Positions 11,420 to 55,655 of a stretch of DNA of 64,000 nucleotides are shown here, piece after piece. The stretch lies in contig JAAEZQ010000003.1 in NCBI GenBank assembly GCA_018222805.1, forward strand, positions 203,487 through 267,486, written 5' to 3'. The position numbers were made by a program, and so were the translations under genes. This DNA comes from Vibrionaceae bacterium (lineage in GTDB: Bacteria > Pseudomonadota > Gammaproteobacteria > Enterobacterales > Vibrionaceae). The notes below the pieces were generated by a model, which was given only the letters and a program-made list of their open reading frames with translations, made no database searches and was not told where the DNA came from. Each line of letters opens with the position of its first letter. Within the stretch, counting starts at the first letter, position 1.

Positions 11420-12340
11420 ATGCGATATTTTCCTCTGTTCTTAGACTTAATCAATAAACCAGTTCTTGTTGTTGGCGGCGGGGAAGTCGCGAGCCGTAAG
11501 ATAGAAGCCCTAATAAAAGCGGGCGCTGATATCACGGTCGTTTCTCCAACCTTGGTTGACTACCTGTCCAAGCTCGCTAAGGATCACCAACTACGATGGA
11601 TCCAGCGTTTTTATTCAAGTGACATTGTCACAAAAGGGTTTGTTCAGGTCTGGGCTACAACTGACAACCCAGACTTGAATCATCAGGTTTATAAAGATGC
11701 GAAAGGGCTAGGAATCTTAGTGAATGTGGTTGATGATAAGCCATACTGTGATTTCATCACCCCTTCAATGATCAATCGCGGTCGTATTCAGATAGCCATT
11801 TCGAGCGGTGGTGCGTCCCCAGTCTTGATTCGTAATATTCGTGAGAAGCTAGAGATGATTCTTCCACAGAACATGGGACTGATGGCAGAGTTTGCAAATT
11901 CCAAACGTAATTCAATTAAAGAGGCGTTACCAAGTGTCGATTTACGTCGTAAATTTTGGGAGCAATTCTTTTCGAATCCTGACGTTGAAAATGCGCGTGA
12001 TAATCGAGATTTAGAAACCATCTACCAAGCAACCATGGCTGATCCGCTCGAAGAAAAGGGCAGTTGCACTTGGATTCACGTCGGTAAAGACGTTGAAATG
12101 TTGCCCATCAAAGCGGTTCGTTACATGCAGCAAGCTGAATTGGCGTTGTACTCGACCAAATGTCAATCAGACGCAATGGAGCTAGTGAGAAGGGACGCAG
12201 AAAGGGAATCGTTCACAAACGCTGCTCAGTTATCAGACATGCTTTCTAAGGCAAAACAAGACAACTTGCGCGTATGTGTGTTTATTCCTGAAGGCACCAG
12301 TGAATTCATGTTGTTACAGGGAAAAGATCTCGTGATCTAG
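11420..12340 (+). CDS. CysG/Met8-like precorrin-2 dehydrogenase/ferrochelatase with decayed SUMT tail
   Basis: The first ~210 residues match the N-terminal half of CysG. They include an NAD-binding Rossmann motif (VLVVGGGEVASRKIEALIKAGADITVVSP, residues 15-43), the catalytic aspartate region NVVDD (about D105), and SSGGASPVLIRNIREKLE. This half oxidises precorrin-2 and inserts iron to make siroheme, the cofactor of sulfite and nitrite reductases. The last ~90 residues resemble the start of CysG's uroporphyrinogen methyltransferase domain (AVRYMQQAELALYS, DAMELVRRDAERESF). They lack its GAGPGD SAM loop and the rest of the domain. The frame ends cleanly at a terminator. Methylation must be done by another enzyme. 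Length is 306 residues against ~457 for full CysG. Confidence 0.85.
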   Translation: MRYFPLFLDLINKPVLVVGGGEVASRKIEALIKAGADITVVSPTLVDYLSKLAKDHQLRWIQRFYSSDIVTKGFVQVWATTDNPDLNHQVYKDAKGLGILVNVVDDKPYCDFITPSMINRGRIQIAISSGGASPVLIRNIREKLEMILPQNMGLMAEFANSKRNSIKEALPSVDLRRKFWEQFFSNPDVENARDNRDLETIYQATMADPLEEKGSCTWIHVGKDVEMLPIKAVRYMQQAELALYSTKCQSDAMELVRRDAERESFTNAAQLSDMLSKAKQDNLRVCVFIPEGTSEFMLLQGKDLVI

Positions 12341-48690: not shown

Positions 48691-48703
48691 GTTACGCTGT
48701 CAC
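48691..48703. promoter_or_regulatory. Near-consensus matS just upstream of matP
   Basis: GTTACGCTGTCAC differs from GTGACRNYGTCAC at one position (third base). It ends 27 bases before the matP start codon, overlapping the likely promoter or leader. MatP autoregulation is an inference. Confidence 0.45.
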
Positions 48704-48729
48704 TAGGTGAGAATTATGGGTCGGAAAGG

Positions 48730-49179
48730 ATGAAATATCAGCAACTTGAAAATTTGGAATGTGGGTGGAAGTGGAACTATCTGATCAAAAAGTGGAAGGA
48801 TGGAGAAGCGATAACGCGTCACATTGACACCAGTGAAGCGGATGCCGCAGTCGCTGAGCTACGACGCTTTGAGCACGAACCAACGCAAGTACTGGCATGG
48901 ATAGATAACCACATGTCAGAAGAGCTTGAGAATAAGCTTAAGCAAGCAATACGTGCAAAACGCAAACGCCATTTCAATGCTGAACAAGTTCATACTAAGA
49001 AGAAGTCCATCGATTTGGATTACCGGGTTTGGGAAAAACTGTCCAGCCGAGCGAATGAACTAGGTTGTACGTTATCTGATGCAATCGAATACCTACTTTC
49101 CGAAGCATCAAGAAGTGAAAAAGCAAGTCAGAAGGTAACTTCAATTAAAGAAGACTTGAGTAAGCTGCTATCCAGCTAA
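48730..49179 (+). CDS. matP: Ter macrodomain organiser MatP
   Basis: This 149-residue protein (150 in E. coli) binds matS sites, organises the Ter macrodomain and links it to the division septum through ZapB. The N-terminal coiled-coil/four-helix part starts MKYQQLENLECGWKWNYLIKKW. The ribbon-helix-helix DNA-binding domain is KKKSIDLDYRVWEKLSSRANELGCTLSDAIEYLLSEA, and a C-terminal tail follows. The frame is open 32 codons further upstream; I chose the ATG at 48730 by family alignment. dif lies 4.6 kb downstream. Confidence 0.94.
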   Translation: MKYQQLENLECGWKWNYLIKKWKDGEAITRHIDTSEADAAVAELRRFEHEPTQVLAWIDNHMSEELENKLKQAIRAKRKRHFNAEQVHTKKKSIDLDYRVWEKLSSRANELGCTLSDAIEYLLSEASRSEKASQKVTSIKEDLSKLLSS

Positions 49180-50076: not shown

Positions 50077-50646
50077 GTGTTTGAAATCATTATAGTTATT
50101 TTTTTATTCCTAGTGTTGATTGTTTACTCATCCAAGAAAGCAAGTAAGAACCAACGCAGAGAGCAGGTTAAGCCCTTTATTGGTTCAAATAGTCATCGAG
50201 CTATGAATCCTCCTCAAACCAAATGCTTGAGTGTTCCACACAAAAAGCATGTCTACTTAAGCTCTAAGACCGAGCGAAACTTCTACAACGTTCTACAAGA
50301 AATATTGCCTTCGGATTATGTCATACATTGTCAGGTTTCATTGATGGCTCTAGTACAGCCGGTAAACTTTAAGGACAACTCTCGAACTTGGGCTAAGCGC
50401 ATGGATTACGTCATTACTGACAGAAACACCAAGATACTCGCTGTTATAGAGTTGGATGACTCATCTCACAGACAGAAAAGGCGTCAAGAACGAGACTTGT
50501 ACGTTAATGCAGCACTAGAAGGACATCACAAGTTGCTCAGATTTGATGCTACAGGAAACTATGACCCAATATATGTCGCTACAGTGATAGAAAGAGAAAC
50601 TGGAATCGCGTGTAACCCGTTCATGACCGTCCTTCAACCTAGTTAG
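50077..50646 (+). CDS. DUF2726 domain protein, membrane-anchored
   Basis: This 189-residue protein has an N-terminal helix (FEIIIVIFLFLVLIVYSSKK) followed by a DUF2726 domain. Within it, MDYVITDRNTKILAVIELDDSSHRQKRRQERD has the acid/ExD arrangement of PD-(D/E)XK-like nucleases. The start codon is GTG at 50077 with AGGA 11 bases upstream. DUF2726 is often fused to topoisomerase-type zinc fingers. Whether this one cleaves DNA is unknown. Confidence 0.75.
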   Translation: MFEIIIVIFLFLVLIVYSSKKASKNQRREQVKPFIGSNSHRAMNPPQTKCLSVPHKKHVYLSSKTERNFYNVLQEILPSDYVIHCQVSLMALVQPVNFKDNSRTWAKRMDYVITDRNTKILAVIELDDSSHRQKRRQERDLYVNAALEGHHKLLRFDATGNYDPIYVATVIERETGIACNPFMTVLQPS

Positions 50647-52957: not shown

Positions 52958-53194
52958 ATGAAACTAGCATATTACGTAAACGATATAGCTCAAGATAATG
53001 GCGACCACGAGGTCCATAATATTGGTGACCATGAAGTCCATAATTCGGGGTGTCCTCATTTTGATAAAATTCAATCTAAGTCTTATTTAGGCTTATTTGA
53101 TAATTGTGCTGAAGCAGTAATTGAAGCAAAGAAAAAATATTACCAGTCAAATGGTTGTTATTGGTGCTGCAACGACTGTCACATGTCACACTAG
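52958..53194 (+). CDS. Small Cys/His-rich protein with tandem GDHEVHN repeats
   Basis: This 78-residue protein has a GGGG ribosome-binding site before its ATG. Residues ~15-29 contain a directly repeated GDHEVHN heptapeptide. The C-terminal part (CPHFDKIQSKSYLGLFDNCAEAVIEAKKKYYQSNGCYWCCNDCH) matches a widespread short pattern: H..GC.., LGxFxxCxxAV..AK..Y, then GCxxCCxxCH. That spacing would bind one metal ion. Function unknown. It lies in the accessory stretch before dif. Confidence 0.65.
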   Translation: MKLAYYVNDIAQDNGDHEVHNIGDHEVHNSGCPHFDKIQSKSYLGLFDNCAEAVIEAKKKYYQSNGCYWCCNDCHMSH

Positions 53195-53198
53195 TTAG

Positions 53199-53410
53199 GA
53201 ACGGGGAACTTTCTACGAACAAATCGCGAACGCACATCCTGGTGGTAAGTTCCCAATAGAAATGAAGTTGACACTTCGCAGCAGGAACTTGGTGCAAGTT
53301 ATGTCGTCAATAACTTCGGCTTAGAGTTAAAGCGCTTTGCGTTTATCAAAACCAGCAGAAACATTTCGCTGAGCGCCCAGCAAGTCAGTAATGTCGAGCT
53401 TACACAGTGA
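53199..53410 (+). pseudogene. Frameshifted gene remnant beside dif
   Basis: Two adjacent frames join into one good protein: TFYEQIANAHPGGKFPIEMK then LTLRSR in the first frame, and from about 53285 ELGASYVVNNFGLELKRFAF and IKTSRNISLSAQQVSNVELTQ in the second. A single lost base near 53285 explains the break, and the start is also missing. It looks like a small phage-type or regulatory protein, not identified further. It lies 320 bp before dif. Confidence 0.6.
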
Positions 53411-53574
53411 TAACACTAGAAAACTAGAACGTAAGAAAGTACAGCTCGAAGCTGGCTCAATTGGAATGTCCAGAAGAGTTAGTATCAGAACTTCAAGAAC
53501 GCCAGGTTGAACTGATAAGCCAACTGAACTGTATTTCAAGGATCTTGTTCGCTAAGAATGTTGGAGGCAAGTAA
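53407..53574 (+). pseudogene. Small gene with a premature stop, overlapping the previous remnant
   Basis: A GTG at 53407 overlaps the preceding TGA (GTGA), a typical coupled start. The frame reads VITLEN, hits TAG at 53425, and continues as NVRKYSSKLAQLECPEELVS and ELQERQVELISQLNCISRIL to a TAA at 53572. The helical, charged sequence is clearly coding-like. One nonsense change has inactivated it. Together with the upstream remnant it was probably a two-gene operon. Confidence 0.55.
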
Positions 53575-53731
53575 TAGAATATCAATCCAGCTGTTCGGTT
53601 ATTTGAATTATATACAATGTAAGAGCTTAATCAGCTGCATGGTTATAAAGTTGATGACTGACGCTGTTGTGGCACAGAAGCAAAATACGGTGTCATTAAG
53701 CTGACAATTCTAAATAGCTCGCACACCCTTT
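53575..53731. other. Non-coding approach to dif
   Basis: I see no gene or repeat, apart from a short GCACACC/GGTGCGC-like inverted match that runs into the left end of dif. Confidence 0.4.
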
Positions 53732-53759
53732 GGTGCGCATTATGTATATTATGTTAAAT
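53732..53759. other. dif site, XerCD chromosome-dimer resolution site
   Basis: This is a 28-bp site of 11-bp XerC arm (GGTGCGCATTA), 6-bp centre (TGTATA) and 11-bp XerD arm (TTATGTTAAAT). As I recall the E. coli dif sequence, it differs from it at one position and from V. cholerae dif1 at three, with the XerD arm identical to both. XerC/XerD resolve chromosome dimers here under FtsK control, and filamentous phages use the same site for integration. It marks the terminus of this chromosome. Confidence 0.92.
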
Positions 53760-53875
53760 AGCGTGTGGCGCTACGCCAAATATTTGCTGGTTTAACCTCC
53801 TATCCCTCCTTTATTTCAATTTCATCCAAGGTTTTGAGACTTCTATTAAACATAATGGCTATTTACCATAAAATA

Positions 53876-53923
53876 CTTAATATAGATCTTAATAATCTAT
53901 CGATTGTTAAGATCTATATTAAG
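53876..53923. repeat. 17-bp perfect inverted repeat between dif and the kinase gene
   Basis: CTTAATATAGATCTTAA (53876-53892) and its exact complement (53907-53923) flank a 14-base spacer. The repeat ends 2 bases before the kinase stop codon. It may act as a terminator for the minus-strand operon although no T-run follows, or as a cruciform. It is very AT-rich. Confidence 0.75.
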
Positions 53924-53924
53924 G

Positions 53925-55655
53925 CTAACTATTTCCTAAAAACATTTGAATGGCTTCGTAGATGTCTTGTCTACGGACTGGTTTAGAGATGAAACTGTCC
54001 ATGCCAGCATCTAAGCATTTGTCACGGTCACTTTCTAAAGCGTGTGCTGTTAATGCAATGATTGGAATGGTGATGCCTTTTTCTCTAATCAAGCGCGTTG
54101 CGGTAATTCCATCCATTACTGGCATCGACACGTCCATGAGTATCATGTCTATTGAGTCACAATGCTCTTCTAGAAACGTCAGAGCTTCTTCACCATGGCT
54201 TGAGATGTGAACGTTATGACCTAACTTGTTTAAAATTAGTTTAATCACGAGTTGGTTTGAATGCGTATCTTCGACAACAAGCAAATTCAACGCTTTGACT
54301 GGACTGTTTGCTTCGATTTTTACGGGACGATTCTGATGAAGTCTGGTTAACACTGGAATCTTTATTGTAAATGACGAGCCCACATGTTCTTCGCTTTCTA
54401 CTGAGATGGTTCCGCGCATCATCTCTACTAAATGTTTGGTGATCGCCAGACCTAATCCTGTTCCACCGAAACGTCTGGTTATCGATCTGTCACCTTGATG
54501 AAATGCAGTGAATAGACGTGATTGTTTGGCTTTTGATATACCAATGCCCGTATCAGAGACGGATATAATTAGCTCGTCTTTTTGTTCTAACACTGAGACG
54601 TTCACAGTACCGTTATCGGTGAATTTAATTGCGTTACCAATGAGGTTAAATAAAACTTGAGATAATCTCGTCGAGTCAATCCAATACTGTTTATCAGGCG
54701 GTATACTACAATTAAGGCTAAAATCTAGATTTTTGCTACTAGCTATTTGTTTTTGTTGGGAAATGACAAAAGTGACAGCGTCACCTAGATTAGTCCACTG
54801 CTCATGTAACTGAAAGCTGCCCGACTCTATTTTAGAGATATCTAGGATGTCACTTATGATTGCGAGAAGCAGTTCCGCAGAGCTCTCCATCTGACACAGT
54901 GCTTCGAACTGCTCGTTGGATAATGTTGATTGTCTCAGAATATCGAGCATACCAAGAACGGAGTTTAGCGGGGTTCGGATCTCATGGCTCATCATCGCTA
55001 AAAACTCGGACTTAGATTGGTTCGCGAGCTCCGCTTCTTCTCGTGCTTTAGCTAACTCTGTCGTCCTTACATCAACGATACGTTGTAACTTCTCTTTGGT
55101 CTCGATATCAATAACTGCTCGTTCTATTAGCGGGCGAAAGCGTCGAAGTGTCTCTTTGTTTTCAATACTGAAGTGCCCTTTTTGTGCACCAATCAATAGG
55201 ATGATATTTTGAGTCACTTCTGAGCGAATACCCGTCATAATAACGGAGTTTACATGGTTCTTAACGAATATGTTTAAGTTGGAGAACTCGCCTAACCTTA
55301 ATGGTTCGAACAGCAATATACATTCACCATTTAACGCTCGCTCCAGTGTGTTACCGTGTAACCAATTAACCTTATCGAATACTCTGTTTGTTGATATTAA
55401 AGTTTTGAAAGGCTGTCTGTTATCGTCACGGGTAATAACGATAAAATCTTCAAAGTTAATGTATTTTTTTAAGACCGTATTTAAACCAGAGAAGATTTCA
55501 TTACGGTTTTTGGCTTCGCTCATAGCTGATATTGCTGAAAGAATGGCTTTGTTTTCATCAGCCAGCAATTTTTCTCTATGCTTCGCTTGTTGTAACTCAA
55601 CCAATGCTTCCTGCAGCGCTTCTTGCTGGTAGGTCTCTAAATATTTATCTTTCAT
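53925..55655 (-). CDS. vpsS: Hybrid sensor histidine kinase (VpsS/NahK type)
   Basis: This 576-residue cytoplasmic kinase has an N-terminal coiled coil and a GAF-like sensing region (about residues 30-195), then a HisKA dimerisation domain with H224 (MMSHEIRTPLNS), and an ATPase domain with N-box GNAIKFTD, G1 DTGIGI and G2 GGTGLGL. A C-terminal receiver domain has the phospho-acceptor D508 (LMDVSMPVMDG). There is no membrane segment. The neighbouring NosP gene overlaps its start by 11 bases. In V. cholerae the equivalent pair senses nitric oxide and VpsS feeds the LuxU/LuxO phosphorelay and biofilm control. The symbol is by homology and context. Confidence 0.75.
   Translation of the reverse strand: MKDKYLETYQQEALQEALVELQQAKHREKLLADENKAILSAISAMSEAKNRNEIFSGLNTVLKKYINFEDFIVITRDDNRQPFKTLISTNRVFDKVNWLHGNTLERALNGECILLFEPLRLGEFSNLNIFVKNHVNSVIMTGIRSEVTQNIILLIGAQKGHFSIENKETLRRFRPLIERAVIDIETKEKLQRIVDVRTTELAKAREEAELANQSKSEFLAMMSHEIRTPLNSVLGMLDILRQSTLSNEQFEALCQMESSAELLLAIISDILDISKIESGSFQLHEQWTNLGDAVTFVISQQKQIASSKNLDFSLNCSIPPDKQYWIDSTRLSQVLFNLIGNAIKFTDNGTVNVSVLEQKDELIISVSDTGIGISKAKQSRLFTAFHQGDRSITRRFGGTGLGLAITKHLVEMMRGTISVESEEHVGSSFTIKIPVLTRLHQNRPVKIEANSPVKALNLLVVEDTHSNQLVIKLILNKLGHNVHISSHGEEALTFLEEHCDSIDMILMDVSMPVMDGITATRLIREKGITIPIIALTAHALESDRDKCLDAGMDSFISKPVRRQDIYEAIQMFLGNS
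54772..54784. other. matS site (MatP binding), inside the kinase gene
   Basis: GTGACAGCGTCAC fits GTGACRNYGTCAC at every position. It lies about 1 kb past dif, so the two perfect matS sites (this and 14298-14310) flank matP and dif on both sides. Confidence 0.85.

Follow-up and report, generated by a model that had tools for sequence, protein, structure and literature searches.

A conserved module with XerD-arm-like boxes lies beside dif on most Vibrionaceae chromosomes and large plasmids examined

Resolution of chromosome dimers at dif is usually described in terms of a 28-bp site and the proteins XerC, XerD and FtsK. A dif-like site in the DNA of a Vibrionaceae bacterium raises the question whether it is the dimer resolution site of chromosome 1 and whether those 28 bp make up the whole locus. 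The window analysed here, by which we mean the entire stretch of 64,000 nucleotides, contains the site and its parts as follows.

53732-53759, plus strand: dif of chromosome 1, the 28-mer GGTGCGCATTATGTATATTATGTTAAAT
53732-53742: XerC arm
53743-53748: central region
53749-53759: XerD arm

The 28-mer is the sole match at up to three mismatches in the window, and none of 100 shuffles gave any. It has the features of its class, namely 11-bp XerC and XerD arms around a 6-bp centre and a sequence near the gamma-proteobacterial consensus. An earlier note on this DNA had described a dif with both arms that lies one base away from that of E. coli, and comparison with the E. coli K12 sequence printed in PMC2731167 confirmed this, the difference being T for A at position 10. 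Three differences (positions 1, 7 and 17) separate the site from dif of V. cholerae chromosome I in the same print. The XerD arm TTATGTTAAAT is identical in the window and in both of these printed sites, again as claimed before. The call as such is known biology: 53732-53759 is very likely the site where the Vibrio cell unlinks fused sister chromosomes.

The source genome (G000; 4.37 Mb, 92 contigs, 95% complete) was searched with a 26-base dif pattern at up to three mismatches. This search, which the earlier note had proposed, found one other near match, a site on contig C74 with two mismatches and a divergent dif2-like centre. The two near matches of the draft thus lie on contigs C89 and C74, which carry no replicon assignment, and a second site on C74 is expected of the dif1/dif2 pair of a two-chromosome Vibrio. 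Contig C89 is 302,277 bp long and has dif at 257,218. Its cumulative GC skew, also proposed as a check, climbs, apart from small dips, until it peaks at 279,570, which is 22 kb to the right of dif and near it on the scale of a 302 kb contig. Over the final 23 kb it drops slightly, from 5697 to 5301; the fall is short because just 23 kb of contig lie past the peak. The motif GNGNAGGG, which we take to be a relaxed form of the FtsK-orienting motif, occurs 35 times on the plus and 7 times on the minus strand to the left of dif, and 0 and 7 times to its right (Fisher p = 4e-5), and its polarity switches between -5.7 and +2.1 kb of dif. Passages of published work give GGGNAGGG and GGGCAGGG as the strict forms; GGGNAGGG is too rare on the contig to judge polarity (5 plus and 1 minus versus 0 plus and 1 minus, p = 0.29) and GGGCAGGG was absent from the contig in the FtsK-motif scan. 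The surroundings of dif hold further landmarks of a terminus.

48724-49179, plus strand: matP, encoding the ter macrodomain protein (Pfam MatP 5.5e-43, MatP_C 2.2e-29)
54772-54784, plus strand: perfect matS-type site, 1.04 kb right of dif
53925-55655, minus strand: hybrid histidine kinase/response regulator gene (Pfam), ending 165 bp right of dif

The distance from matP to dif is 4.6 kb. Using what we presume to be the matS consensus, further perfect matS-type sites were found at 11619 and 14298 of the window, and contig C89 has seven in all, scattered over 190 kb. A matS-type site with one mismatch (48691-48703) lies just 5' of the matP frame and is perhaps autoregulatory. Taken together, sequence, GC skew, FtsK motifs, matP and matS-type sites uphold the dif1 reading and, with it, the proposal that the window represents the terminus of chromosome 1. 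The site thus shares with V. cholerae dif1 and E. coli dif, the sites used by XerCD-FtsK, the 28-bp layout, the position in the terminus, the flip of FtsK motifs and the matP/matS context, from which it departs by three bases and one base, respectively, and by an additional flanking module described below.

The earlier note had further held that dif explains the presence of matP, of matS and of a decayed element. The first two fit; for the supposedly decayed DNA on the left such a link is at most possible. The stretch 53200-53820 had no phage match at 1e-5, and among four frames tested in the left-hand stretch three had none. The fourth, a 78-aa frame at 52958-53191, matches phrog_4298 (2e-20), a phrog of unknown function, and is the only sign of phage ancestry among these frames. 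Between matP and dif, a DUF2726 protein (50077-50646) matches phrog_14167 (6.7e-73). Short GC-rich hairpins flank dif closely at 53720-53737 and 53766-53778, the former overlapping the XerC arm (CGCACACCCTTTGGTGCG).

To place the site among relatives, an exact dif 27-mer was scanned against genome contigs of 84,980 species, one genome per species. All 77 stretches recovered have the title of a Vibrionaceae genus (Vibrio, Photobacterium, Aliivibrio, Enterovibrio, Grimontia or Salinivibrio). In three records titled as complete chromosome 1 (L021, L079, L085) the 27-mer falls near the midpoint, with relative positions of 49.7%, 49.7% and 50.4% counted from the record start, which is only assumed to be at oriC. 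A matP match was present left of dif, inside the stretch, in 30 of the 77 relatives, and many have matches to the kinase, FIST and ccoN on the right; by tblastn, the hybrid kinase is the right-hand neighbour of dif1 in many Vibrionaceae. In the genus group of G000 there are genomes that share their dif flanks, base for base, with V. mexicanus and V. salilacus, and the host is accordingly a Vibrio.

The flanks were examined after a blastn match had extended past dif into a plasmid. On the XerD side, between dif and the kinase gene, we found a module that is absent from the earlier note. While dif itself is known, the module beside it is a new part.

53845-53923, right of dif: module of two inverted XerD-arm-like boxes and a palindrome
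53845-53855, minus strand: box A, ATTAAACATAA, 10/11 to the inverted XerD arm, starting 85 bp past dif and 16 bp ahead of box B
53861-53875, minus strand: box B, ATTTACCATAAAATA, starting 101 bp past dif
53876-53923, no strand: palindrome with arms 53876-53897 and 53902-53923, 21/22 complementary, and a 4-nt loop

Bases 1-11 of box B match the inverted XerD arm ATTTAACATAA at 10/11, and both boxes are therefore putative XerD sites. Inverted arms of at least 10/11 occur on the contig at 0.002 per 150 bp in one orientation, with boxes A and B themselves counted in. The palindrome begins immediately to the right of box B and folds as DNA at -16.5 kcal/mol (z = -8.2 versus shuffles). A known RNA as its identity was rejected, since a search of known RNAs returned miRNA families only, with scores far below gathering.

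In an alignment of right flanks box B emerged as a nearly invariant 15-mer, ATTTACCATAAARTA, whose presence was scored with the pattern ATTTA[AC]CATAAA[AG]T[AG]. It starts 68-144 bp past dif on chromosomes and 56-141 bp past dif on plasmids. Of 100 chromosomal dif sites from Vibrionaceae, 85 are accompanied by box B or a one-base variant (83 of 98 once two duplicates are removed); these are the window, the dif2-like site of the same genome, 67 of 77 titled stretches and 16 of 21 further sites of the same genus. When the right flank was at least 145 bp long, 66 of 74 titled stretches had the box, compared to 1 of 3 shorter ones. As a control, it was present in 0/135 left flanks in either orientation and in 0/141 right flanks in the opposite orientation. 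The place of box A, the 26 bases before box B, contains an inverted XerD arm of at least 8/11 in 124 of 125 sites, starting 13-17 bp ahead of box B; the 26 bases just right of dif do so in 5 of 125, and shuffles average 6.1-6.5. Many sites also have, to the right of box B, an inverted repeat whose sequence is variable. Counting a palindrome when its best stem exceeded the best of 10 mononucleotide shuffles, 65 of 84 chromosomal and 11 of 14 plasmid sites qualified, as did 10/10 in a second family (f2) and 1/16 in a third (f12). The first base of its arm lies between -5 and +3 relative to the end of the box in 80 of the 84 chromosomal sites, at +17 in f2 and at +25 to +27 in three plasmids. In two V. 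cholerae-related loci (L122, L123) a perfect matS-type site, GTGACATTGTCAC, lies directly beyond the module.

Could this be an ordinary dif whose right flank looks conserved merely through relatedness of the species? The idea draws on dif being well known and on many loci having the same neighbours. It conflicts with the profile of conservation, because in the 67 rows aligned on box B (66 titled stretches and the window) the box holds 1.96 bits per column next to 0.15 in the spacer 17-45 bp ahead of it, and with the recurrence of the same box among other neighbours, at the dif2-like site of the same genome and on plasmids. We regard this reading as highly improbable and, unless the alignment is wrong, as excluded by the present data.

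The module is thus present in most Vibrio-family chromosomes and large plasmids examined. Eight of the 74 usable stretches lack box B (L027, L031, L037, L049, L051, L063, L079, L085); they comprise V. breoganii, V. superstes, V. inusitatus, V. rumoiensis, V. hibernica, P. phosphoreum, in which a copy is degenerate, and two other Vibrio. In L051, L079, L085, L063 and L049 (V. superstes, V. breoganii, V. inusitatus, V. rumoiensis and V. hibernica) dif is kept and box B was not found in the available stretch, which for L063 includes 476 bp of right flank. Since some Vibrio lineages do without it, the module is not universally required, and such dif-bearing, box-less lineages are natural knock-outs for comparison. 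In L027 an intact succession of box A, box B and palindrome lies 6362 bp (6.4 kb) right of dif, as if an element had inserted between.

A strong hairpin directly 3' of the stop codon of the kinase gene might also be a terminator, and palindrome and boxes together might then terminate transcription or insulate dif from kinase read-through. The palindrome is AT-rich, though, and in a test for intrinsic terminators (GC-containing hairpin plus T run) it was not among the two sites called, which are the GC-rich hairpins at 53720-53737 and 53766-53778 (2 found, 0.1 expected). Moreover, the module occurs on plasmids, 24 of 53 titled loci with a box and at least 1.5 kb of right flank had no match to the kinase, f12 lacks the hairpin, and a terminator has no need of a near-invariant 15-mer at stepped distances from dif. 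We consider this explanation quite improbable. A terminator of the kinase gene as the sole reason for the module was rejected, given the missing terminator call and the modules at kinase-less loci.

We analyzed how closely the box is tied to dif. In the source genome, box B at up to one mismatch occurs in two places, both exact, beside dif1 and beside the dif2-like site; the box pattern read backwards gave four matches at the same looseness. Thirty-four genomes (23 of family f1, 11 of family f2) contain 49 exact copies, 43 of them beside dif, compared to three exact copies of the backwards pattern. Forty of the 43 lie 70-131 bp after an exact XerD arm and three after the arm TTATGGTAAAT. The six remaining copies include two that resemble chance and four that resemble full modules, the latter without a recognisable dif in the 211-373 bp examined upstream, although one (L238) has a 9/11 arm at 91. 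L238 and another of these copies (L237), at 1.569 and 1.547 Mb, lie 22 kb apart near the middle of a 3.26 Mb contig (C1 of genome G009), and the roughly 350 bp upstream of each contain nothing recognisable as dif. Four of the 23 f1 genomes lack box B at dif and also have no exact copy elsewhere. In an order-wide sample of 295 genomes, the XerD arm plus box at 70-131 bp was found in 19/23 of f1, 7/11 of f2 and 0/261 others, the last number including f12 genomes, whose box variant the pattern misses; the backwards pattern with an arm was found in none of the 295. Box B is therefore nearly confined to dif, unlike the matS-type sites scattered over 190 kb of the contig, even though MatP/matS organisation of ter and the module occupy the same region.

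The two other families have versions of their own. A dif match was obtained in 10 of 11 f2 genomes and all 10 sites carry ATTTACCATAAAGTA at 80, 100 or 107 (an eleventh locus, L191, was dropped as a 3-mismatch match that is unlike dif and lacks a box). In three of them the dif arm, TTATGGTAAAT, is the exact complement of the site's own box. In f12, which was picked after the variant had been noticed in one member (L099), 16 of 21 genomes gave a dif match and 16/16 sites carry ATTTAACATAAAATG at 66-68, 76-79 or 99-101, a box in which the inverted XerD arm is exact. A further sample of the order gave 36 dif matches, of which nine were left out (three f2/f12, one off-target match, five without a locus). 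The 27 loci of other families that were read have no inverted arm of at least 9/11 at 50-150 bp right of dif; one (L210) has an arm at 179 and five others have isolated 9-10/11 matches elsewhere in their flanks. Family f6, with a dif of the S. oneidensis type printed in PMC2731167, has no box.

Large plasmids were searched with a dif-plus-box query, which matched 42 records, 28 of them from Vibrionaceae; searches with the f2 and f12 queries gave matches at dif only. The set that was read comprises 14 Vibrionaceae records, pMBL287 (L016, from the earlier blastn) and one Pantoea control, and is without Klebsiella, E. coli and Salmonella records. Every one of the 15 Vibrionaceae replicons, whose sizes run from 157 kb to 2.1 Mb, has a dif-like site matching at 23-28 of 28 bases and, on its XerD side, a box, at 14-15/15 in 14 replicons and at 12/15 in one, and the Pantoea plasmid has no box (8/15). 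Box presence is not independent in 10 of the 14 records because they were found via the box half of the query. The four found via the dif half (L173, L174, L176, L179) have three intact boxes and one at 12/15.

The distance between dif and box varies in steps. On chromosomes the offsets fall into groups at 78-80, 87-90, 99-101 and 109-113, and values in between are few. The best period is 10.85 bp on chromosomes (R = 0.71, n = 85), 10.95 bp in f12 (R = 0.87, n = 16) and 9.75 bp in f2 (R = 0.89, n = 10; R = 0.80 at 10.5), and 0 of 2000 uniform sets, scanned on a coarser grid of periods, reached the observed R values. Within 2 bp of a 10.85-bp ladder, itself fitted to the chromosomal data, lie 72 of 83 chromosomal offsets, 14 of 16 in f12 and 9 of 10 in f2, where 38.2, 7.4 and 4.6 are expected. 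The signal is in part shared ancestry, as relatedness inflates it: when repeats of an offset are collapsed to a single entry, the share of null sets that attain the observed value is 0.099 for chromosomes, 0.0095 for f12 and 0.041 for all. Among 32 nearest-neighbour pairs whose offsets differ by more than 3, the difference is 9-13 in 11 and 20-23 in six; in the other 15 it is 4, 4, 5, 6, 7, 18, 27, 29, 33, 34, 34, 55, 65, 66 and 76. Plasmid offsets show no phasing (7 of 14 within 2 bp, a value reached by 0.70 of null sets). The steps of about 10.8 bp seen on chromosomes and absent on plasmids suggest a helical phasing of box and dif.

How does such an arrangement compare to known Xer systems? 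Like the module, cer of ColE1 and psi of pSC101 have DNA adjoining the Xer core site, in which control of recombination is likely. As passages of PMC11724359 describe them, their accessory sequences of about 200 bp adjoin the XerC arm and are bound by ArgR or ArcA together with PepA. The module differs in lying on the XerD side and in consisting of XerD-arm-like boxes and a palindrome; no box at all was seen beside the XerC arm, in 135 left flanks. The attachment sites attP1 and attP2 of CTXphi resemble it in being two inverted Xer-like sites about 90 bp apart, and that pair, as set out in parts of PMC4246890, folds as single-stranded DNA into the integration site, whereas here one partner is an intact dif.

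The latter likeness invites the idea of a relic, that is, an attachment region which Xer-using integrative elements left at dif or copied to it. Filamentous phages do integrate at Vibrio dif, in the CTX attP two dif-like sites in inverted orientation are paired at a distance of 90 bp (PMC4246890, in the same parts), and dif plus box was found on 40 viral contigs. In 39 of these 40 loci, however, the XerC side of dif has the larger share of the DNA, which puts the box on the short, host-like side. The box adjoins the same chromosomal neighbours in several genera, and its sequence is kept while the spacer is not. In addition, the RS1/CTX attachment region from rstC to rstR has no box B and a best arm of 8/11, and CTX attP2 was for this reason rejected as the source of the box. 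These data have already weakened the relic explanation, which we consider improbable.

What, then, might the module do? The half-sites face dif at helical-turn steps, which suggests that XerD bound there contacts XerCD at dif. At about even chances, we propose that the dif-associated 15-bp box, paired with the second box and the palindrome, binds extra XerD that is predicted to make this contact. In such a scheme, XerD on boxes A and B would occupy two half-sites facing dif and touch XerD or XerC at dif via a short loop, which could form because helical-turn spacing would keep the boxes on one face of the helix. The complex might keep XerD-first recombination under the control of FtsK, or it might help to hold sister dif sites together until FtsK arrives. 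As FtsK controls the first strand exchange, which XerD carries out according to passages of PMC2533119, contact with the module could restrain or time the reaction.

Alternatively, the boxes might be recognised by another DNA-binding protein acting at dif, for example in sister pairing or anchoring at the septum, in which case the XerD likeness would be incidental to a high AT content. One C of box B is invariant, deviates from the XerD arm and is usually missing from the arm of dif, conservation runs past the arm-like part into TAAT and, at the level of structure, into the palindrome, and passages of PMC4177673 imply factors other than MatP at dif1. Yet the likeness to the XerD arm extends to two separate boxes of the same orientation and recurs in three families, the f12 box contains the exact arm and three f2 dif arms match their own boxes. 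On balance we think that a protein other than XerD is unlikely, albeit a serious candidate.

Published experiments bear on the proposed XerD contact in two ways. In V. cholerae, recombination between dif cassettes depends on FtsK and is independent of RecA, and cassettes tens of kb from dif2 still recombine, at about 45% within 160 kb (passages of PMC4177673), so the module is dispensable for the reaction itself. On chromosome 1, by the same passages, cassette exchange drops rapidly away from dif1, sister contacts peak sharply around dif1, and MatP explains little of this, implying other, unnamed factors. A steep fall-off that is hardly due to MatP leaves room for a local cis factor, and the module is a concrete candidate for the factor behind the V. 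cholerae dif1 sister-contact peak. In its widest form our proposal is more tentative: the module would possibly be the second half of the dimer resolution locus in Vibrionaceae and two further families, a set of inverted tandem XerD sites, accompanied in most cases by a palindrome and kept in register with dif along the helix, whose loop would pair sister dif sites or gate activation by FtsK and which would act as the cis factor behind the MatP-independent contact peak at dif1. A module with a nearly invariant 15-mer beside dif, on chromosomes as well as large plasmids, would supply a cis part that the description of this locus has lacked.

A full-text literature search, with subscription papers and figures outside its scope, found no such dif-flanking module in titles or abstract openings. 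In 2008 it was stated, as data not shown, that no conserved motif lies immediately up- or downstream of Vibrio dif1 and dif2, in a section of PMC2533119 that gives no number of genomes; a variable distance between dif and box could hide box B from a gap-free comparison. On Vibrio megaplasmids (L166-L178), the XerC arm and the centre of dif vary while the XerD arm is nearly unchanged, and box B can serve as a marker for these divergent sites.
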